DNA of 64,000 nucleotides, taken from Planctomycetaceae bacterium. GTDB taxonomy: Bacteria; Planctomycetota; Planctomycetia; Planctomycetales; Planctomycetaceae. Positions 7,914 through 20,662 of the stretch are shown here, piece by piece. Position numbers and translations under genes: made by a program. The stretch covers positions 1 to 64,000 of the forward strand of contig JAKFUG010000008.1 of NCBI GenBank assembly GCA_021732785.1. The letters run 5' to 3'. The notes beneath the pieces are model-generated. The model was given only the letters and a program-made list of their open reading frames with translations, was not told the DNA's origin and did no database searches. The stretch's first letter is position 1. Each line of letters opens with the position of its first letter.

Positions 7914-10685
7914 ATGCTACGCACGATGTTCGTAATTGCCTTGCTCGCCGGAACGACCATTGCCGCGGAACCGCCTGATTTTGCGGCGTTGCAACCCGTC
8001 TTCCGTACGTACTGCAACGGTTGCCACAACGCGAAAGAAGCCGAGGGCGGCCTTGTTCTCGAAGACTTCGCCCGTGCCATGAAGGGGGGCGAGTCCGGCC
8101 CCGCGATTGTCGCTGGTGATCATGCCAGGAGCGCTCTCTGGAAACGACTCAACGCCACCGATGACACGATGATGCCGCCGAAGGATCAGCCGCGACTCAA
8201 ACCGGCGGAACTTGCGTTGGTAAAAGCGTGGATCGACGCCGGGGCGAAACCCCCCGTTGGCGGGCTGGCGGCGCAGGGTTTGGTCACGCCGAAAATCGTG
8301 CTGAAGTCGAAAGCCCGCTCGCCGATCACCGCGCTCGCGGTTGATCCACAGGGGCGATTCCTGGCCATCGCGAAGCCGCATGTCGTGGAAATTGTGACGG
8401 CCGCGGATCGCCAGCCGGTGACGCAACTCGTCGGTCATGCGGGCGCGATTGCCGATGTGCAGTTCTCGAAGACCGGGGACCGCCTGGTGGTCGCCGCCGG
8501 GGAAACGGGATTGAGCGGGGAAGCCACCGTGTGGAACACCGCGGACTGGTCCCGCGGTCTCGTGATCAACGGACATCGCGACACCTTGTACGCCGCGGCG
8601 ATCAGCCCCAACGGCACCGTGATCGCGACGGCGAGTTACGACCGCGACATTCGCACGTGGGATGCAAAGACGGGTGCTGCGCTGAAGACGCTCGCCGGGC
8701 ATAACGATGCGGTCTACAGCATCGCGTTTCATCCGGGTGGAAAAATTCTCGCCTCCGCCAGCGGCGACCGTACGATCAAGTTGTGGGATGTCGCGCAGGG
8801 TCACCGGCTCGACACGTTCTCGCAACCGGCGAAGGAACAATATCACGTGCAGTTCGCCCCCAACGGCAAACAACTCGTTGCCGGCGGCGTCGATATGCGG
8901 GTCCGGCTCTGGCAGATTTCCGAAACGGCTCAGGAAGGGACCAACCCCATCGAATACGCCCGCTTCGCCCACGAAGCGCCGATTCTCCGCACGGTCTTTT
9001 CCCTCGACGGCCGGTTGCTTGCCTCCGCGTCCGAAGACCGCCGGATCAAACTGTGGGAAACCCGCACATTCACCCAGGTGGCGATGTTGGAACGCCAAGC
9101 CGACTGGCCCTCCGCCGTGACATTTTCACACGACTCAAAAGCCCTCTTTGTTGGTCGCATGAGCGGTGATTTCGCGGCGTATCCGATCGATCCAACATGG
9201 GCCGATAAGACCAACGATCTCGAAGCGTTGCCCGAATCACCGACGATCACGGCGACCAATCCCGCACCCATGCCTGCGGAAGTCGCCGAAGTCGAACCGA
9301 ACAACGTCCTCGCCGAAGCCCAGCCGCTCACCATTCCCGCCAGTGTGAAAGGTTCTTTCCAGGCAGCGACCGGCAGCGATCCCGATCTGTATCGGTTTGA
9401 CGCGAAGGCCGGGCAGACGTGGATGATCGAAACCAACGCGGCTCGCAGTGGCTCGAAGGCCGACACGAAAGTCGAAGTTCTCGACGCCCACGGCCGTCCG
9501 GTCCCACGCGCGTTGTTGCAGGCCGTGCGCGATTCCTACATCAACTTCCGGCCGATCGATTCGTCGCAACTGGAAGTCCGACTCGATTACTGGGAAGAGA
9601 TGGACCTCAACCAGTTGCTCTACATGAACGGCGAAATCTGCAAGCTCTACCGGGCCCCGCGCGGACCCGACTCGGGGTTCGAACTGTACCAGAACGCGGG
9701 GAAACGGCGGAACTACTTCGACACGTCGGCGACCGGGCAGGCGAAGGAACAGCCGGTCTACATCGTGGAAGCGTTTCCGCCGGGCGCGCCGATCGTGGAC
9801 AACGGTCTGCCGATCATTCCGCTGTTCTACATCAACGATGACGACGCCGAGCGCGAACTGGGGACCGATTCCCGGCTCACGTTCACCGCCCCCGCCGATG
9901 GCACGTATCTTCTGCGCGTCACCGATTCGCGCGGCTCGGTGAGCGACAAGCACACGTATCAACTCACAGTCCGCGCCCCGCAGCCGGACTTCCGCGTCAG
10001 TGTCGAAACGATGAATGTGAAGCTTCCGGCCGGCAGTGGACAACGGCTGAAGTTCAACGTCGACCGGATCGACAACTTCGATGGGCCGGTCCGCATCGAA
10101 GTCGCGAATCTTCCGGCGGGATACCACGTCGCCCAGCCGACGGTGATCGCCGCGGGGCAACTCAACACGTTCAGTGTCATCACTGCCGCCGCGGATGCCC
10201 AAGCGGTCGACAAAGAGATGTGGGAGAAAGTCGTCGTCACCGGCACCGCCGACATCGGCGGGCAAGCCGTCACCAAACGGTTCGGCCACCTCGGCACGAT
10301 CGCGCTCGAAAAACCGCCGATGATTCGCGTGATTCTCGTCCCCGATGACCTCGCCACCACGGCGACCGATGGCGGGCTGGTCATCGTTCCTGGCACCACC
10401 ATCACCGCGAAAATTCGTATCGAACGCAACGGCTTCGACGGCGATGTGAAGCTCGATGTCGACAACCTGCCCCACGGCATGATTGTCGACAACATCGGCC
10501 TGTCGGGGGTGCTCGTCCGGGCCAATGAAACCGAACGGCAAATCTTCCTCACCGCCCGGCCGTGGGTGAAAGAGACCACGCGATGGATCGATGCGGTGGC
10601 TCAAGGCCAGGGCAACCAGGCGTCCGGGGCGATCCCGTTGCATGTCCGTCCCAACGCCGCCGTCGTGCAGACATCGGGGAAATGA
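7914..10685 (+). CDS. Secreted planctomycete-type cytochrome c with WD40 repeats
   Basis: A 923-residue protein. A signal peptide spans residues 1-19 (FVIALLAGTTIAA), followed by a planctomycete cytochrome c domain (about 25-110) with CNGCHNAKEAEGG as the CXXCH haem-binding motif and MMPPKDQPRL as the likely distal Met region. WD40 repeats follow at about 130-430, each ending near ...TWDA, ...LWDV, ...LWQI or ...LWET. The C-terminal half (about 450-920) contains beta-sandwich segments, including a pre-peptidase-like stretch EVEPNNVLAEAQPLTIPASVKGSF. ATG 7914 is chosen because it precedes the signal peptide; a GTG ten codons upstream is less likely. It is probably periplasmic. The domain combination is typical of planctomycetes; substrate and partners are unknown. 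Confidence 0.9.
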   Translation: MLRTMFVIALLAGTTIAAEPPDFAALQPVFRTYCNGCHNAKEAEGGLVLEDFARAMKGGESGPAIVAGDHARSALWKRLNATDDTMMPPKDQPRLKPAELALVKAWIDAGAKPPVGGLAAQGLVTPKIVLKSKARSPITALAVDPQGRFLAIAKPHVVEIVTAADRQPVTQLVGHAGAIADVQFSKTGDRLVVAAGETGLSGEATVWNTADWSRGLVINGHRDTLYAAAISPNGTVIATASYDRDIRTWDAKTGAALKTLAGHNDAVYSIAFHPGGKILASASGDRTIKLWDVAQGHRLDTFSQPAKEQYHVQFAPNGKQLVAGGVDMRVRLWQISETAQEGTNPIEYARFAHEAPILRTVFSLDGRLLASASEDRRIKLWETRTFTQVAMLERQADWPSAVTFSHDSKALFVGRMSGDFAAYPIDPTWADKTNDLEALPESPTITATNPAPMPAEVAEVEPNNVLAEAQPLTIPASVKGSFQAATGSDPDLYRFDAKAGQTWMIETNAARSGSKADTKVEVLDAHGRPVPRALLQAVRDSYINFRPIDSSQLEVRLDYWEEMDLNQLLYMNGEICKLYRAPRGPDSGFELYQNAGKRRNYFDTSATGQAKEQPVYIVEAFPPGAPIVDNGLPIIPLFYINDDDAERELGTDSRLTFTAPADGTYLLRVTDSRGSVSDKHTYQLTVRAPQPDFRVSVETMNVKLPAGSGQRLKFNVDRIDNFDGPVRIEVANLPAGYHVAQPTVIAAGQLNTFSVITAAADAQAVDKEMWEKVVVTGTADIGGQAVTKRFGHLGTIALEKPPMIRVILVPDDLATTATDGGLVIVPGTTITAKIRIERNGFDGDVKLDVDNLPHGMIVDNIGLSGVLVRANETERQIFLTARPWVKETTRWIDAVAQGQGNQASGAIPLHVRPNAAVVQTSGK

Positions 10686-10696
10686 ACAAGGCGATG

Positions 10697-10785
10697 ATGC
10701 CACGGCTTCGGAGTCTGCGGAGAAGCCGTGTCTTCGCATGCTGAAGGAAGCACGCAGCACTGCTTCGCGGACGAAGCCGTGGCAC
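10697..10785. repeat. Imperfect palindrome (TGCCACGGCTTCG family)
   Basis: The left arm TGCCACGGCTTCG at 10699 is complementary to CGAAGCCGTGGCA ending near 10785, with nested GGCTTC and GAAGCC hairpins between. It lies in the 3' region between the cytochrome/WD40 gene and ispH. Layout is like the element at 640-725. Confidence 0.65.
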
Positions 10786-10886
10786 AATTGAGCGATGTGT
10801 ACCGCGTAACGTCGTCGCGCGGTGCAATGTTGGGGTGAGGTGTCTAGAATGCAGGACGGTGACACCGGTCTCGAAATGGAATGGCG

Positions 10887-11834
10887 ATGCGAATTCTACT
10901 GGCGAACCCGCGCGGCTTTTGCGCGGGGGTGAACATGGCAATTGAGTGCCTCGACGAAGTCATTCGGATGTGCGGTCCGAAAGTGTTCGTGTACCACGAA
11001 ATCGTGCACAATAAATACGTCGTCGACCGCTTCACGGAACAGGGCGTGACGTTTGTCGATGCGATCGACGAAGTCCCTCACGGCGCGATTCTGCTCTACA
11101 GCGCGCACGGGGTCTCGCCGGAAATTCGGCAGCAGGCCCGCGAACGCCATCTGCGGACGATCGACGCCACCTGCCCGCTGGTGACCAAGGTCCATCTCGA
11201 AGCGATCCGTTACGCCGAGGGAGGGTATCACATCGTGCTGATCGGTCACGAAGGGCACGATGAAGTGATCGGCACGATGGGCGAAGCGCCGGAAAGCATC
11301 ACGCTGGTGGAAACGCCGGAAGAGGTCGCGAATCTGTCATTTCCCGCCGGGGCGAAGATCGCGTACCTCACGCAGACGACGCTCAGCGTTGATGAAGCGG
11401 GCCGGGTGATTGCGGCGCTCAAGCAGTATTTCCCCACGATCGAAAGTCCGCCGAAGGAAGACATCTGTTATGCCACCACCAACCGGCAGGAAGCGGTGAC
11501 GATCCTGGCGTCGCGTTCGGATGTGCTGCTGGTGCTCGGCAGTCAGAACAGTTCCAACAGCCGCCGGTTGATGGAAATTGGTCAGTCGCTCGGCAAGCCA
11601 TCGTATCTGATTGATGGCGTCCACGAATTACAACGGGAGTGGTTCCTTCCCGAACAGACGGTGCTGATTACGGCGGGAGCAAGTGCGCCGGAAGTGGTCG
11701 TGCAGGATGTAATCCGTTACCTGCAGACCGAGTTCGCCGCTGAAATGGAAGAAGTCACCACGCGCGAGGAGCACGTTTCGTTCCCGTTGCCAAAAGAGCT
11801 GCGGCAGATGCAGAAACTGGCCGTGGTGCAATAA
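10887..11834 (+). CDS. ispH: 4-hydroxy-3-methylbut-2-enyl diphosphate reductase
   Basis: A 315-residue cytoplasmic iron-sulfur enzyme that performs the last step of the MEP isoprenoid pathway, converting HMBPP to IPP and DMAPP. The start at 10887 gives MRILLANPRGFCAGV, the usual family N-terminus, and length close to the E. coli enzyme; an in-frame ATG exists at 10881. The three [4Fe-4S] cysteines are visible as C12 (GFCAG), C96 (DATCPLV) and C194 (EDICYATTNRQ). The substrate-binding residues H41, H74 and H124 and the catalytic E126 (GHEGHDEVIG) are also visible. It appears monocistronic, with a palindrome upstream. Confidence 0.97.
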   Translation: MRILLANPRGFCAGVNMAIECLDEVIRMCGPKVFVYHEIVHNKYVVDRFTEQGVTFVDAIDEVPHGAILLYSAHGVSPEIRQQARERHLRTIDATCPLVTKVHLEAIRYAEGGYHIVLIGHEGHDEVIGTMGEAPESITLVETPEEVANLSFPAGAKIAYLTQTTLSVDEAGRVIAALKQYFPTIESPPKEDICYATTNRQEAVTILASRSDVLLVLGSQNSSNSRRLMEIGQSLGKPSYLIDGVHELQREWFLPEQTVLITAGASAPEVVVQDVIRYLQTEFAAEMEEVTTREEHVSFPLPKELRQMQKLAVVQ

Positions 11835-11884
11835 CCGGGGGCTATCAGTCCGTGGCACACAGAACCGAATATTTCCACGGGCCG

Positions 11885-12721
11885 CTAAGACCGGAAGCGC
11901 AGGCGGGTGAAGGCTTCGGTTTGAGCGGTAATGGCGGGTTCGACGGGCAGGCGTTCCATCGAGCTGGCACCGTAAAAGCCGACGATGCCTTCGGTGTGAT
12001 CGAGGATGAATTGCGCGTCCGCGGGGTCCGCAATCGGGCCGCCGTGACAGAGGACGAGGATGTCGCGATTGACCCGCCTGGCGGCGTCGTGCATGGCCTG
12101 ACACCGCTGTGCCGATTCCTCCAGCGTGAGCGCGGTCTGTGCGCCGATCGAACCCTTGGTCGTCAATCCCATGTGCGGGATCAGAATGTCCGCCCCGGCT
12201 TGGGCCATCGCCGCGGCCTCATCGGTGTTGAAACAGTACGGCGTCGTCAGCAAGTCCATTTCTCGGGCGAGGCGAACGAGATCGACCTCCAGCCCGTACC
12301 CCATGCCGGTTTCTTCGAGTCCCTGCCGGAACGTCCCGTCGATCAACCCGACCGTCGGGAAATTTTGAATCCCGGCAAACCCCGCGGCCTGCACTTCCCG
12401 CAGAAAGACCGGCATCAGCCGAAACGGGTCGGTTCCGCACACGCCTGCCAGCACCGGCGTGTGCTTCACCACCGGCAGCACCTCGCGGGCCATGTCCATC
12501 ACGATGGCATTCGCGTCGCCGTAAGGCATCATCCCCGCCAGCGAACCGCGGCCCCCCATGCGGAATCGGCCGGAATTATAGATCACAATCAGATCGATCC
12601 CGCCGGCCTCTTCCAGTTTCGCCGACAGCCCGGTGCCTGCCCCGCCGCCGATAATCGGCTGTCCCGCGGCGACTTTCGCCCGGAGCCGTTCCAGAATTGC
12701 CGTGCGTGTCATGGTCGCCAT
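11885..12721 (-). CDS. Phosphoenolpyruvate hydrolase-like TIM-barrel protein
   Basis: A 278-residue protein with a good AGAGGAAG ribosome-binding site before ATG 12721. Features of the PEP-hydrolase-like family (PF09370) are [33 protein letters not shown] near the start, [44 protein letters not shown] and a final [15 protein letters not shown]. These enzymes resemble isocitrate-lyase/PEP-mutase barrels and occur in plants, fungi and bacteria, but their true substrate is poorly defined. It is convergent with ispH, with only 50 bp between stop codons. Confidence 0.85.
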
Positions 12722-16350: not shown

Positions 16351-17415
16351 TTACCCGACCTTCTTGCCGGTGAGTCGGTAGACATAAGCCAGGATTTCAA
16401 CGAAGACTTCGTACATGTCCGGCGGAATGGGCTGGCCGACTTTGACGAGATTGTACATCGACCGAGCCAAGGCGGTCCGTTCGATGATCGGGATCTTGTG
16501 CTGGGCCGCGATTTCACGAATCCGCTCGGCGACATCGCCCTTGCCTTTCGCCACCACGATGGGCGCGGGCATCTTCTCGGCGTCGTACTTGATTGCGATG
16601 GCAATATGCACCGGGTTCACAATCACCGCGTCGGCCGTGGGGACCTGGCTGACGTCACGCGCTTCGGCGAGTTTCCGATGGGCTTCTTTCCGCCGCGCCC
16701 GCATTTGCGGATTGCCGTCCATTTCTTTCGATTCTTCGCGGATTTCCTGCTTCGACATCCGCAGGTCGCGCTCGTGCTGCCACCATTGATAGCCGTAGTC
16801 GAGAATCGCCAGCGAGACCAACGTGATCGCCAGCGAGAATCCCAACTCGCAATACGAACGCCCGGCGGTCATCAGCAAGATTGGCAAGTCCTGCTGCGCC
16901 AGCGACTGAAACTCATCCTGATGGCTGGCCAGATACGAATAGGCGACGGCTGCCACCGCCGCGATTTTGATGAAACTGCCCACGAGTCGCATGGCTGACT
17001 GCAATGAAAACAAGCGCTGAAAACCGCTGAGCGGGTTAAGGCGTTCCCACTTCGGTTGGAGCGCTTCCGGTGAGAACAAGAAGCCAACCTGTGCGACCGA
17101 TGCGAGAAAGCTGCCGAGCATCACCAGCAGCATGAGTGGCACAACCGATCCGGCCACGGTGATGCCGATCGACCAGATCAGCGCGACCGCCGACTGCCGA
17201 TCAAGTTGCAGCAACGGATCGGACTGCAACGTCCTTCGCAGCAGTTGCACGAAGGCCTCACCGCAACGGGGACCGATGAAATACAATCCCCCAGCCGCCG
17301 CCAGCAACACCGTCGCCGCGGTGACATCGACACTGCGCGCAATGTTCCCCTGCTGCCGCGCCTGGGTGCGCCGGCGGTCGGTGGGTTGCTCTGTCTTATC
17401 GCCGGAGTCGGACAT
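16351..17415 (-). CDS. flhB: Flagellar type III export apparatus protein FlhB
   Basis: A 354-residue inner-membrane export-gate protein. The N-terminus DKTEQPTDRRRTQARQQGNI is family-typical. Four membrane helices lie in residues about 30-210. The linker is charged (HERDLRMSKQEIREESKEMDGNPQ), and the cytoplasmic domain contains residues 267-270 Asn-Pro-Val-His, where the autocleavage motif is normally NPTH. FlhB controls the switch from rod-hook to filament export and binds FliR. The Asn and Pro of the cleavage site are retained, so cleavage is probably possible. It is the last gene of the fliOPQR-flhB cluster, 79 bp after fliR. Confidence 0.97.
   Translation of the reverse strand: MSDSGDKTEQPTDRRRTQARQQGNIARSVDVTAATVLLAAAGGLYFIGPRCGEAFVQLLRRTLQSDPLLQLDRQSAVALIWSIGITVAGSVVPLMLLVMLGSFLASVAQVGFLFSPEALQPKWERLNPLSGFQRLFSLQSAMRLVGSFIKIAAVAAVAYSYLASHQDEFQSLAQQDLPILLMTAGRSYCELGFSLAITLVSLAILDYGYQWWQHERDLRMSKQEIREESKEMDGNPQMRARRKEAHRKLAEARDVSQVPTADAVIVNPVHIAIAIKYDAEKMPAPIVVAKGKGDVAERIREIAAQHKIPIIERTALARSMYNLVKVGQPIPPDMYEVFVEILAYVYRLTGKKVG
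16606..16617 (-). other. FlhB autocleavage site variant NPVH
   Basis: Codons AAC CCG GTG CAT (minus strand) encode Asn-Pro-Val-His at FlhB residues 267-270, replacing the usual Asn-Pro-Thr-His. The scissile Asn-Pro bond is kept. Confidence 0.85.
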
Positions 17416-17494: not shown

Positions 17495-18502
17495 CTACCA
17501 TCGCTCCATCGGGTTTACCAAGGCATCGCGTAGCGACTCTAATGCCGCCGGAACTGCCGAGAGTGTGGCTTCGGGTACGCCCGAAAGCATGATCGCCAGG
17601 AAGAACATGCACAGGGCCGCGCGGGCGGCGTAACCGACCCCTTGCAGATTCACTTGCGGGACCGAATGTCCCAGGAATCCCAGCGTGAGATCGACGAGCG
17701 ACATCGTGATGATCAACGGGGCCGAGACGCGCAGTCCCAGCAGCAACGATTGCTGAACCAGCGTGCCGACGAGTTCCACGGCGGACCGGGAAATGAACGC
17801 TTCCCCAATCGGCAGCGTTTCGAACGTTTGAATCATGGTCCGCAACATCGTGAGATGTCCGCCCATCGGTTCGAATACGAGGAACATCGTCATCCCCAGC
17901 GAAAACAGCGATTGCCCGGAGACGGAAGCCGTGCTGTCGAAGTCCGGATTGATGATTTCGCCCAGACTGAAGCCCGCCTGCTGATCGACAATCTGCCCCG
18001 CGAGTTGCAGTCCTGAAAGAATGGTCAGCACACCCAACCCGAGCAAAAATCCCAGCGATAATTCGCCGAGCAAGGCCCCCGCATATTCGATGAGATTGAT
18101 CGGCGACGGGACCGTGGTGGCCAGGTAATCGTCCGCCCGGATGCCGGCGTCGGGACTCAAGTGCCGGGCTTGCAGAATCGCGTCCCGGCGATGTTCCAAA
18201 CCGGGCGGGATTTCGTCCTCCACGAGTTGTCCATCGCCGTTTTCATCCAGTCGATCAAAGCCGCGTTGCAACTGTGAGGGCAACGCCGGCGTGATGATTA
18301 ACGCCAATGAAATCACGAGCAAGGCCCGCACATTCATCGGCACCGCGGTTTGCCCGAAGAACGGACCGATGATCATCAGCCCGCTGAGCCGCACCAGCAC
18401 GAGAACAAACCGGGCGACCTCCAACAGCGCACTGTCGACGAGCGCCCGCGATAACCACGGTGCCAGCCGTTCGGGATCAAGCAGTGTGGTGAAGGAGTCC
18501 AT
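17495..18502 (-). CDS. fliR: Flagellar export-gate protein FliR with an EF-hand insertion
   Basis: A 335-residue membrane protein; typical FliR is about 260 residues. Family features are the N-terminal RFVLVLVRLSGLMIIGPFFGQTAVPMNVRA, LLGELSLGFLLGLGVLTILSGLQLAGQIVDQQAG with the conserved G-x-x-x-D-x-Q-x-G pattern, and QQSLLLGLRVSAPLIITMSLVDLTLGF. The excess length sits between the second helix (about 60-75) and residue 135. It contains DENGDGQLVEDE at residues 86-97, a perfect 12-position EF-hand calcium loop (Asp1, Asn3, Asp5, Gly6, Leu8, Glu12). FliR forms the core of the FliPQR export gate. A calcium role is inference, but the motif itself is plain. Confidence 0.95.
   Translation of the reverse strand: MDSFTTLLDPERLAPWLSRALVDSALLEVARFVLVLVRLSGLMIIGPFFGQTAVPMNVRALLVISLALIITPALPSQLQRGFDRLDENGDGQLVEDEIPPGLEHRRDAILQARHLSPDAGIRADDYLATTVPSPINLIEYAGALLGELSLGFLLGLGVLTILSGLQLAGQIVDQQAGFSLGEIINPDFDSTASVSGQSLFSLGMTMFLVFEPMGGHLTMLRTMIQTFETLPIGEAFISRSAVELVGTLVQQSLLLGLRVSAPLIITMSLVDLTLGFLGHSVPQVNLQGVGYAARAALCMFFLAIMLSGVPEATLSAVPAALESLRDALVNPMERW
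18212..18247 (-). other. EF-hand calcium-binding loop encoded within fliR
   Basis: These 36 bases encode the loop DENGDGQLVEDE (FliR residues 86-97), matching D-x-[DN]-x-[DN]-G-x-[ILV]-x-x-x-E at every position. The flanking FDRL and IPPGL are like planctomycete EF-hand proteins. Confidence 0.85.
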
Positions 18503-18532: not shown

Positions 18533-18799
18533 TTACAGATGCGTCGGGATCGCATGGAAAACGTCCGTGGCGTATTCCATCAATAGATGCAACGTCCACG
18601 GCAGCGTGTAGAGCAGCACCAGCGTCATCGCGATCATCTTCGGCACGAAGCTCAACGTCTGATCCTGCAACTGCGTCACCGCCTGGCCAATGCTGATCAG
18701 CAAGCCCATGGCCAATGCCGCAGCCAGAACCGGCAGGCTGAGCATGAATGCCATCACGACGGCTTGCCGAACGAGCTCAATGGCGGCATCGGTGGTCAT
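18533..18799 (-). CDS. fliQ: Flagellar export-gate protein FliQ
   Basis: An 88-residue protein with two membrane helices (about 15-38 and 53-75) and the family motif GLLISIGQAVTQLQDQTLSFVPK between them. FliQ packs around the FliP-FliR core of the flagellar type III export gate. It lies between fliP and fliR with 30 bp to fliR, in the standard order. Confidence 0.96.
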   Translation of the reverse strand: MTTDAAIELVRQAVVMAFMLSLPVLAAALAMGLLISIGQAVTQLQDQTLSFVPKMIAMTLVLLYTLPWTLHLLMEYATDVFHAIPTHL

Positions 18800-18868: not shown

Positions 18869-19858
18869 TTACCCGGACATGGGGCGGACGCTTTCCAGCA
18901 GCATGCCCACGGTGAGGAACCAGCCGTCGATCAACACGAACAACAACAGCTTCAGTGGCAGCGAAATCAACACCGGCGGCAACATCATCATCCCCATGCT
19001 GATGAGGAGTGCGGAGATGACGAGATCGATGACCAGAAACGGCAGATAAATCTGAAAGCCGATGAGGAACGATGTCTTTAACTCGCTGAGCATGTACGCC
19101 GGAATGAGAACCGACAGCGGGACTTCCTCGTAGCTTTGTGGTTCGACATAATTCCGCGCGGCCGTGGTTCCGGCCACGGGGCGTTGGTAATCGAGAAACA
19201 TCCAGATCGCGTCGCCGTTATCGGCCCGGTCGATCTGATCGGCCATGAAGCGCCGCACCGGACCGATCGCCCGTTGAAACGCCGTGTATTCGTCGATCGG
19301 CGCTTCTCCCGGCAACGGGTGCGAATACGGTCGAATCCCCGCGTCATACGATTCCTGCCAGACCGGCATCATCACCATGACCGTGAGGAACAGGCACAAC
19401 GAAACAATCACCTGATTCGGCGGCAACTGCTGCGTTCCCAGCGCTTGCCGCAAGAGTCCGAGAACGATCACGAACCGGATAAAGCACGTCGTCATCATCA
19501 AAATGGACGGTGCCAGCGACAATACCGTCAGCAACAACATCACCTTCAGCGATGAAGTGAGACCCTGCGGCGAGGTGAGCTGGTTGGCATCGATTCCCAG
19601 CGGCAGCGCGGGAGCCACCGGTCCCGCGGCATTGCCGTTGGGTGGTGCCGGTCGGGTTTCCACCACGGGACGCACATCGTTGCGAAACGCGGGAGCCGAA
19701 CCGCCGGGATTGGCACGCGGTGTCAGCGGTTGTTGCTGAGCCGATGCGGATGAACCCAGCAGAAGGATGATGACAAGAAGAAATCCGAAATCCGAAATCC
19801 GAAATCCGAAGGAAATTCGAAAATGAGAAAGAAGGAAACAAGAACAAATCGCGTGCAT
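18869..19858 (-). CDS. fliP: Flagellar export-gate protein FliP
   Basis: A 329-residue protein with a signal peptide, as is usual for FliP. ATG 19858 is chosen because AGGA lies eight bases upstream; in-frame ATGs also occur at 19867 and 19942. A variable Pro-rich stretch (about 45-80) precedes the FliP core: [45 protein letters not shown] and [57 protein letters not shown]. Residues about 13-26 ([15 protein letters not shown]) are encoded by a dispersed repeat whose other arm lies at 19896-19930. No alternative start exists after it, so the repeat appears to be translated as part of the signal peptide. Confidence 0.95.
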
Positions 19859-19930
19859 GCGATTCATCCTGTTTTCCAGTTTGAATTTCGTGCTTCTTTC
19901 GGATTTCGGATTTGGGATTTGGGATTTTGT
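19779..19930. repeat. ATCCGAAATCCGAA inverted repeat overlapping the 5' end of fliP
   Basis: Left arm 19779-19815 (GAAATCCGAAATCCGAAATC...) pairs with right arm 19896-19930 (TTTCGGATTTCGGATTTGGG). The left arm is inside fliP, and the right arm lies upstream of the chosen start, so the start codon and ribosome-binding site sit in the loop of the potential hairpin. Confidence 0.8.
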
Positions 19931-19934
19931 GAAA

Positions 19935-20537
19935 CTAACCATCCGCCGTCTCCGCTAAGGAAACGGGTTGACTGCGGCGGGGGCGAGTTTCAAACGAGCC
20001 ATTGCGATTGGTCGCTGTTTCGCGAGTGAAAAGCTGTGAGAACGAATTCCCGCCGGCGGTTTCATCACGACGGCGACACGCACCGGCGAGCAGATCCACC
20101 TCCACAGGATCGGTGATTTCAGACAACGTACGGATCCCGTCGGGACCGACGCCGAGAACCAGCATGCGTGTTCCACAGCGCACGAGATGAACCGCAACGC
20201 CACGACTGAGAACGCGTTGGCCCAACGGTTCCAGCGCTTCGTTGGGCAGACCGCGCAGGCTCGATGGTCCATGCACGCGGAGCCAGCGACTGGCGACGAG
20301 CATGCCCACAACCACCACGGCGAGACCCGCCAGGCTTCCCCATACGGAGGTCGATGCCGGCATGGCGCGCGAAGTCGGTTCCTTCGCTGATGATGGTGCG
20401 TTTCGGACCGGTAATAGATGGGGACGTGTCTCGGCCGCTTCGCTCAGTCGACGTGGCTCCGCCGACAGCGGCGGCGCGAATGCCAGTGACCCGCCTGCGG
20501 CCAGCATCCACAACAGCGCCCACCGCAGCCATGTCAC
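19935..20537 (-). CDS. fliO: FliO-like flagellar export protein
   Basis: A 200-residue protein with an N-terminal signal-like hydrophobic stretch ([18 protein letters not shown]) and a second membrane helix ([19 protein letters not shown]). The FliO-type cytoplasmic domain follows, with [38 protein letters not shown]. FliO assists assembly of FliP. GTG 20537 is preferred because the longer frame (to 20633) would have to translate the dispersed palindrome pair at 20568-20662. Poor conservation is normal for FliO. Position directly upstream of fliP supports the call. Confidence 0.82.
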
Positions 20538-20567
20538 GATTTGCTCTGCCCACGAAAAGAAGACGTC

Positions 20568-20662
20568 GCACCCCGGCTGCTTCTTCGCAGCCGGGGTGCT
20601 CGAAGTTGGCAAGCGGGTTGGATTATCCAGCATCCCGGCTTCTCGGAAGCCGCCGGGATGCG
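20568..20662. repeat. Tandem pair of palindromes, second copy
   Basis: Same two palindromes as 1917-2002 (GCACCCCGGCTGC... then GCATCCCGGCTTC...GCCGGGATGC), here about 40 bases apart. It lies between the POTRA-domain gene and fliO. Confidence 0.85.

Follow-up and report, generated by a model that had tools for sequence, protein, structure and literature searches.

The flagellar locus of a Planctomycetaceae bacterium raises the question of how a calcium-binding-type EF-hand loop came to lie within FliR, a core protein of the flagellar export gate, and what it could do there. The window analysed here is the whole stretch of 64,000 nucleotides (contig JAKFUG010000008.1, positions 1 to 64,000), in which the open reading frame of fliR occupies positions 17495-18502 of the minus strand and encodes a protein of 335 residues. 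Residues 30-313 match Pfam Bac_export_1 (PF01311) with E 3.1e-42 and 145.2 bits, above the cut-off of 27.8. The gene order is fliO-fliP-fliQ-fliR-flhB, with fliO at 19935-20633, fliP at 18869-19942, fliQ at 18533-18799 and flhB, the downstream neighbour of fliR, at 16351-17415, all on the minus strand. This arrangement is widely kept, as fliQ adjoins fliR on the same strand in 49 of the 51 EF-type loci that exceed 2,400 bases and FlhB is also present in 43 of them. When the predicted model of the whole protein was submitted to VIA-align, the first 13 of the best 50 rows were FliR or SctT chains (Z 11.7-17.6, the best being 8z5s_8 with Z 17.6) and row 14 was the export-gate/rod chain 7bin_A (Z 8.1); rows 15-50 were EF-hand-containing by title, mostly over model residues 73-132. 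A search with the FliR family found one FliR in the window's genome. The neighbouring FliP is 357 residues long and matches the Pfam FliP domain from residue 137 only, giving it an apparent long N-terminal extension. No match to FlhA (PF00771) was found in this genome (G000) despite the presence of FliE, flagellin, FliF and FliOPQR-FlhB, and the simplest reading is an assembly gap.

The sequence-only reading had placed a calcium loop, DENGDGQLVEDE, at residues 86-97 (18212-18247, minus strand) of a 335-residue FliR carrying an insert after its second helix, and had regarded every key position of the loop as matched. All of this holds: the coordinates are exact, the open reading frame has the stated length, the profile alignment places the insert between helices 2 and 3, and the loop conforms to the EF-hand motif, which we take to be 12 residues with D at position 1, D, N or S at positions 3 and 5, a hydrophobic residue at position 8 and E at position 12. 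Relatives were examined by taking FliR from 156 loci, which gave 120 distinct sequences (L077 and L153 had no usable FliR match and L001 was omitted as a copy of L002). The EF-type set comprises 49 distinct FliRs chosen by the loop residues D1 and E12, so that these two residues define the set and the independent evidence lies in the remaining positions. L068 passed the length filter, which retained 50 rows, and was excluded as the sole row without E at position 12. The complete motif is present in 49 of 49 relatives preselected in this way, with N or D at position 3, D or N at position 5 and L, I or V at position 8 in every one. Changes mapped on the tree number 11 at position 3 and 7 at position 5, all of them swaps of N and D, and 5 at position 8, where L, I and V replace one another; each of positions 2, 4, 6, 7, 9, 10 and 11 has 14-29 changes, and Gly occupies position 6 in just 24 of the 49. 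At the sequence level, this alternation of kept and changing positions looks like the pattern expected from side-chain metal ligation. The pattern D.[DN].[DN]..[ILV]...E occurs in all 49 EF-type inserts and in 83 of 98,000 shuffles of those inserts; within the 49 proteins it is confined to the insert, and the remaining 71 distinct FliRs gave no match. A chance motif was rejected on the shuffles and the conservation, and a loop unique to the window's genome was rejected because relatives carry the same loop with its ligands conserved.

A second EF-hand loop lies downstream in the same insert, at residues 114-125 (HLSPDAGIRADD; 18128-18163, minus strand). It is degenerate: its ligand positions 1, 3 and 5 are not conserved and change 18-26 times on the tree. 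Position 8 is hydrophobic in 48 of the 49 sequences, position 12 is E or D in 35 and position 13 is F, Y, W or L in all of them. In a FliR model folded from a 20-sequence alignment, a helix at residues 56-85 (18248-18337, minus strand) extends from the second FliR helix directly into loop 1, forming the entering helix of the first EF-hand, and is followed by beta residues 92-93, a helix at 103-112, beta residues 121-122 and a helix at 123-128. Averaged in blocks of ten residues, pLDDT lies between 83 and 91 over residues 71-130. The insert with its flanks, residues 74-132 (18107-18283, minus strand), takes the same fold when modelled in isolation (mean pLDDT 85.7). Both predicted models contain two helix-loop-helix halves with short beta stretches, and it is in such predicted models only that the paired EF-hand geometry was seen, loop 1 included. 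The FliR segment is thus predicted to be a complete EF-hand pair, with one calcium-binding-type loop and a degenerate partner. The earlier statement that only one EF-hand is present stands as far as ligand loops are concerned and fails for the fold, as models and conservation both point to the degenerate partner; a lone EF loop was rejected for the same reasons.

Structure comparison returned EF-hand proteins, with middling to weak scores. With the insert fragment, the best 50 VIA-align rows were all EF-hand proteins by title, the best reaching Z 7.9 with rmsd 1.9 over 54 residues, where the tool itself notes values below 8 as middling; in the whole FliR model, residues 73-131 superposed on a calmodulin chain at rmsd 1.9 over 55 residues (Z 7.8). 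Foldseek hits to the fragment were weak (best E 0.053, none below 0.001), and the best 50 rows were EF-hand or calcium-sensor proteins by title. The insert profile matched PDB EF-hand chains with E 6.1e-11, a value summed over repeated EF loops, the best single stretch having an i-E of 0.084, and the whole-FliR profile found EF-hand chains, calmodulin and polcalcin among them, over columns within 63-147 (E 0.013-0.5 among the best 60 rows). Of 20 insert fragments, 15 matched Pfam EF-hand_7 at E ≤ 1, the lowest value being 0.00043. For the window's sequence taken singly, no Pfam EF-hand score exceeded its cut-off in either the whole FliR or the insert fragment: EF-hand_6 gave E 0.17 and 12.1 bits in the whole protein and 15.5 bits in the fragment scan, below a cut-off of 25 that is a score threshold and not a structural feature. 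Neither dockerin nor Excalibur was among the nine Pfam families matched by the 20 insert fragments, and the modelled entering helix together with E at position 12 would argue for an EF-hand over dockerin- or Excalibur-type loops.

The distribution of the insert is narrow. FliR was found in 141 of 170 genomes of the window's family and was read from 101 family genomes (two unclassed), with the EF type in 45, although the loci had been chosen to favour long-insert FliRs and 45 of 101 is not a frequency. In 43 of these genomes the EF type was the only one read, and in two it stood beside a second FliR. Members include Gimesia, Alienimonas chondri and Planctomyces. The family contains two FliR lineages, sometimes in one genome (G027, G059), and the EF insert occurs in one of them only. 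A tree built without the insert columns (119 rows; root not inferred; fragment L053, the same protein as L156, left out) grouped all 49 EF sequences with four FliRs that lack the insert, in one clade of 53 (SH-aLRT 84, not starred). The EF label needs five changes on this tree, of which starred branches force at least three, and the simplest reading would be one gain and several losses. The FliR loops of L068 and L118 look by eye like possible remnants of a decayed EF-hand. Further, a sample of 392 genomes of the phylum contained FliR in 243, 27 in the window's family and 216 in other families. The region profile A3 gave at least 17 matches spanning positions 2-93 of 94, all within the window's family, and among the matches listed none came from the 216 genomes with FliR outside the family; the search scored 13 first-look candidates per genome and could miss a strongly diverged case. 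A contig scan yielded six loci from Bacillota and Pseudomonadota (L072, L073, L075, L076, L078, L079), and none of these has the EF loop. On these sequences, EF-type FliR appears to be inherited within one clade of one planctomycete family.

The presence of the insert was compared with that of FliE and flagellin. Genomes in which only EF-type FliR was read have both in 42 of 43 cases, the exception, G101, having neither. Where only the EF-less FliR of the sister clade was read (24 genomes), 16 have neither, two have flagellin only and six have both; each of these six (G161, G162, G167, G169, G171, G173) has a second FliR match outside the set that was read. Both proteins are also present in the three genomes that combine sister and clade-1 FliR copies and in 20 of the 23 genomes in which only the other EF-less lineage was read. 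Finally, the four genomes that lack the insert within the EF clade divide equally, G008 and G129 lacking FliE and flagellin and G004 and G118 keeping both. Strong as it is in raw counts, the association between the EF insert and FliE reduces to three independent contrasts (sign test p 0.25, not significant) and was dropped as a result; as a lead, it suggests that the EF domain goes with an axial structure. Flagella in general do not require the domain, since G004, G118 and 20 of those 23 EF-less genomes keep FliE and flagellin.

A separate observation concerns 16 family genomes (G174, with locus L206 at 9295-11978, and 15 others) in which FliR is of the EF-less sister type and neither FliE nor flagellin was detected. 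Adding G008 and G129 brings the sampled total to 18; a YscJ/FliF match is present in every one, and FlhA in 17 (all but G112). In L206, a single frame of 495 residues (9295-10779) matches both FliO and FliP, an apparent fusion, and is followed by an 88-residue frame and then FliR; no other type III gene was found among the ten frames scanned there. Secretin counts in 11 genomes were uninformative, since each of them has several matches. The 18 genomes are candidates for type III systems of Planctomycetota that are non-flagellar or have diverged strongly; a 2012 paper reports NF-T3SS only from Chlamydiae, Proteobacteria and Verrucomicrobia (PMC3459982).

The likely donor of the module is found in the same bacteria. 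The FliR region profile retrieved a free multi-EF protein from the window's own genome (L170) with E 1.4e-7, and some free EF proteins repeat a unit made of a live EF, the motif E-[IV]-P and a degenerate EF; the resemblance to planctomycete EF-hand proteins that had been noticed from the flanks of the loop is borne out by this match and this shared unit. Six free EF proteins have N-termini that resemble signal peptides when judged by eye. L170-L173 and L175 are secreted-looking, with 7-8 EF-type loops each, the second loop being degenerate in some units. The EF module would most likely have been recruited from secreted multi-EF-hand proteins of these bacteria.

Published homologue structures serve to assign the insert to one side of the membrane. 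In the profile alignment, residues 63 and 68 of Salmonella FliR stand opposite columns 79 and 137, which places the insert within the loop between helices 2 and 3. In Salmonella, residues 55-68 form the loop that Kinoshita et al. 2025 (PMC12403130) name the R-loop, located at the periplasmic gate. By alignment, the EF insert maps to the inside of this R-loop, a site that would lie over the periplasmic mouth of the channel. Residues 18-55/71-155 of FliR have been matched to residues 64-100/173-245 of FliP (PMC8239009, presumably Huesing et al. 2021), and FliP is described as having a periplasmic domain between TM2 and TM3 (PMC5542437); because of this match and this position, the EF pair in FliR would take the place where FliP has its periplasmic domain. 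The R-loop site, the FliP equivalence, the periplasmic C-terminus of FliR in cryo-EM of homologues (PMC7064499) and the secreted look of the free EF-hand proteins together make it most likely that the EF domain faces the periplasm. The opposite orientation, in which a cytoplasmic insert would sense cytoplasmic calcium near FlhB/FlhA, could draw on FliR-FlhB fusions that were once taken to suggest that the FliR C-terminus and the FlhB N-terminus lie on the same side (PMC7064499). It conflicts with the same cryo-EM structures, with the R-loop at the periplasmic gate (PMC12403130) and with donor-like proteins that look secreted, and is very improbable.

The R-loop also appears to be a place where FliR changes length, because EF-less FliRs (L104, L106, L107, L109, L110, L111) carry other segments of 46-67 residues between the same anchors. 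This bears on the alternative that the EF pair is a tolerated spacer, a filler that is neutral or improves stability, in a loop open to insertions. Long unrelated R-loop segments in other FliRs of the family (L104, L106, L107, L109) and the four EF-clade FliRs without the pair would fit such a filler, which would nonetheless have no need of ligands, and these are kept in 49 distinct sequences while their neighbours change 14-29 times. This alternative is judged unlikely.

The reading preferred here, with a probability of about 0.6, is that the FliR EF pair is a calcium-stabilised element of the R-loop, derived from secreted EF-hand proteins and located in the periplasm, facing FliE, FliP or the MS-ring. 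The pair would enlarge the R-loop, which links helix 2 to helix 3 where the FliPQR channel opens outwards. From the ligand positions we infer that EF loop 1 binds calcium; glutamate at position 12 of an EF loop suits calcium better than magnesium. The periplasm follows the calcium of the outside medium, and a usual EF-hand would be loaded there most of the time. At the calcium concentrations of the periplasm, loop 1 should usually be occupied, and the insert would fold as a rigid block anchored where the second FliR helix ends. This block would probably act as a bulkier R-loop, lying across the pore between FliR and FliP5 at the point where the first FliE comes in, or brace FliR against a neighbouring FliP or the MS-ring, or do both. 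Its role would be at the FliE/rod junction.

The suggestion in the sequence-only reading that calcium could tune flagellar export is not supported in that form. Since calcium at the periplasmic R-loop follows the medium, a constitutively loaded, structural role is likelier than a regulatory one. A calcium sensor proper, an R-loop that reshapes with periplasmic calcium and thereby regulates gate opening or FliE entry, is unlikely. Its ligands are kept while the positions between them change, the R-loop has been proposed to block or gate early secretion in Salmonella (PMC12403130), and another type III apparatus responds to calcium by way of SctV-SctW (PMC13231503), all of which would agree with sensing. 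The apparent EF losses in G004 and G118, which keep FliE and flagellin, speak against it, as does the dead partner loop. Moreover, an EF-hand in the periplasm would be loaded for most of the time. A more specific version, a calcium-dependent periplasmic latch in which calcium on the EF R-loop sets the entry of FliE into the beta-cap pore and hence the start of the rod and motility, is considered quite unlikely; if it were true, the start of rod assembly and motility would depend on calcium outside the cell.

A whole lineage carries in its R-loop an independently folding domain of a metal-dependent type whose ligands have been kept. The EF R-loop could serve as a natural handle, as a single-ligand mutation or a change in calcium should perturb the R-loop alone, and EF-type FliR bears on whether extracellular ion conditions can act on the flagellar export gate. 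FliR and the EF-hand are each well known; the new part is their combination, of which no report was found in the open-licence PMC literature. The window's protein shares with known FliR/SctT proteins (PF01311) the Pfam match, the gene order, the model fold and the insertion site in the R-loop, and differs from them in about 60 extra residues that form the EF-hand pair; the R-loop is short in the three homologous chains with alignments shown. Like pairs of the calmodulin/NCS-1 type, the insert consists of two helix-loop-helix halves (Z up to 7.9), but it keeps ligands in one loop and sits inside an integral membrane protein. It shares a live EF loop and the E-[IV]-P after it with the planctomycete multi-EF proteins, some of whose units also contain a degenerate second EF, whereas those proteins are free-standing repeats with signal-peptide-like N-termini and no membrane-protein context. 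Calcium control of injectisomes through SctV/SctW resembles the case proposed for FliR in that calcium acts on a type III export apparatus; as described, it works through the gatekeeper SctW and SctV and not through the FliR homologue (PMC13231503). Finally, the lineage-specific LysM and AMIN domains of FliO (PMC12403147) offer a parallel of domain accretion onto a core component of flagellar export, as in FliR, in another protein and with other domains.
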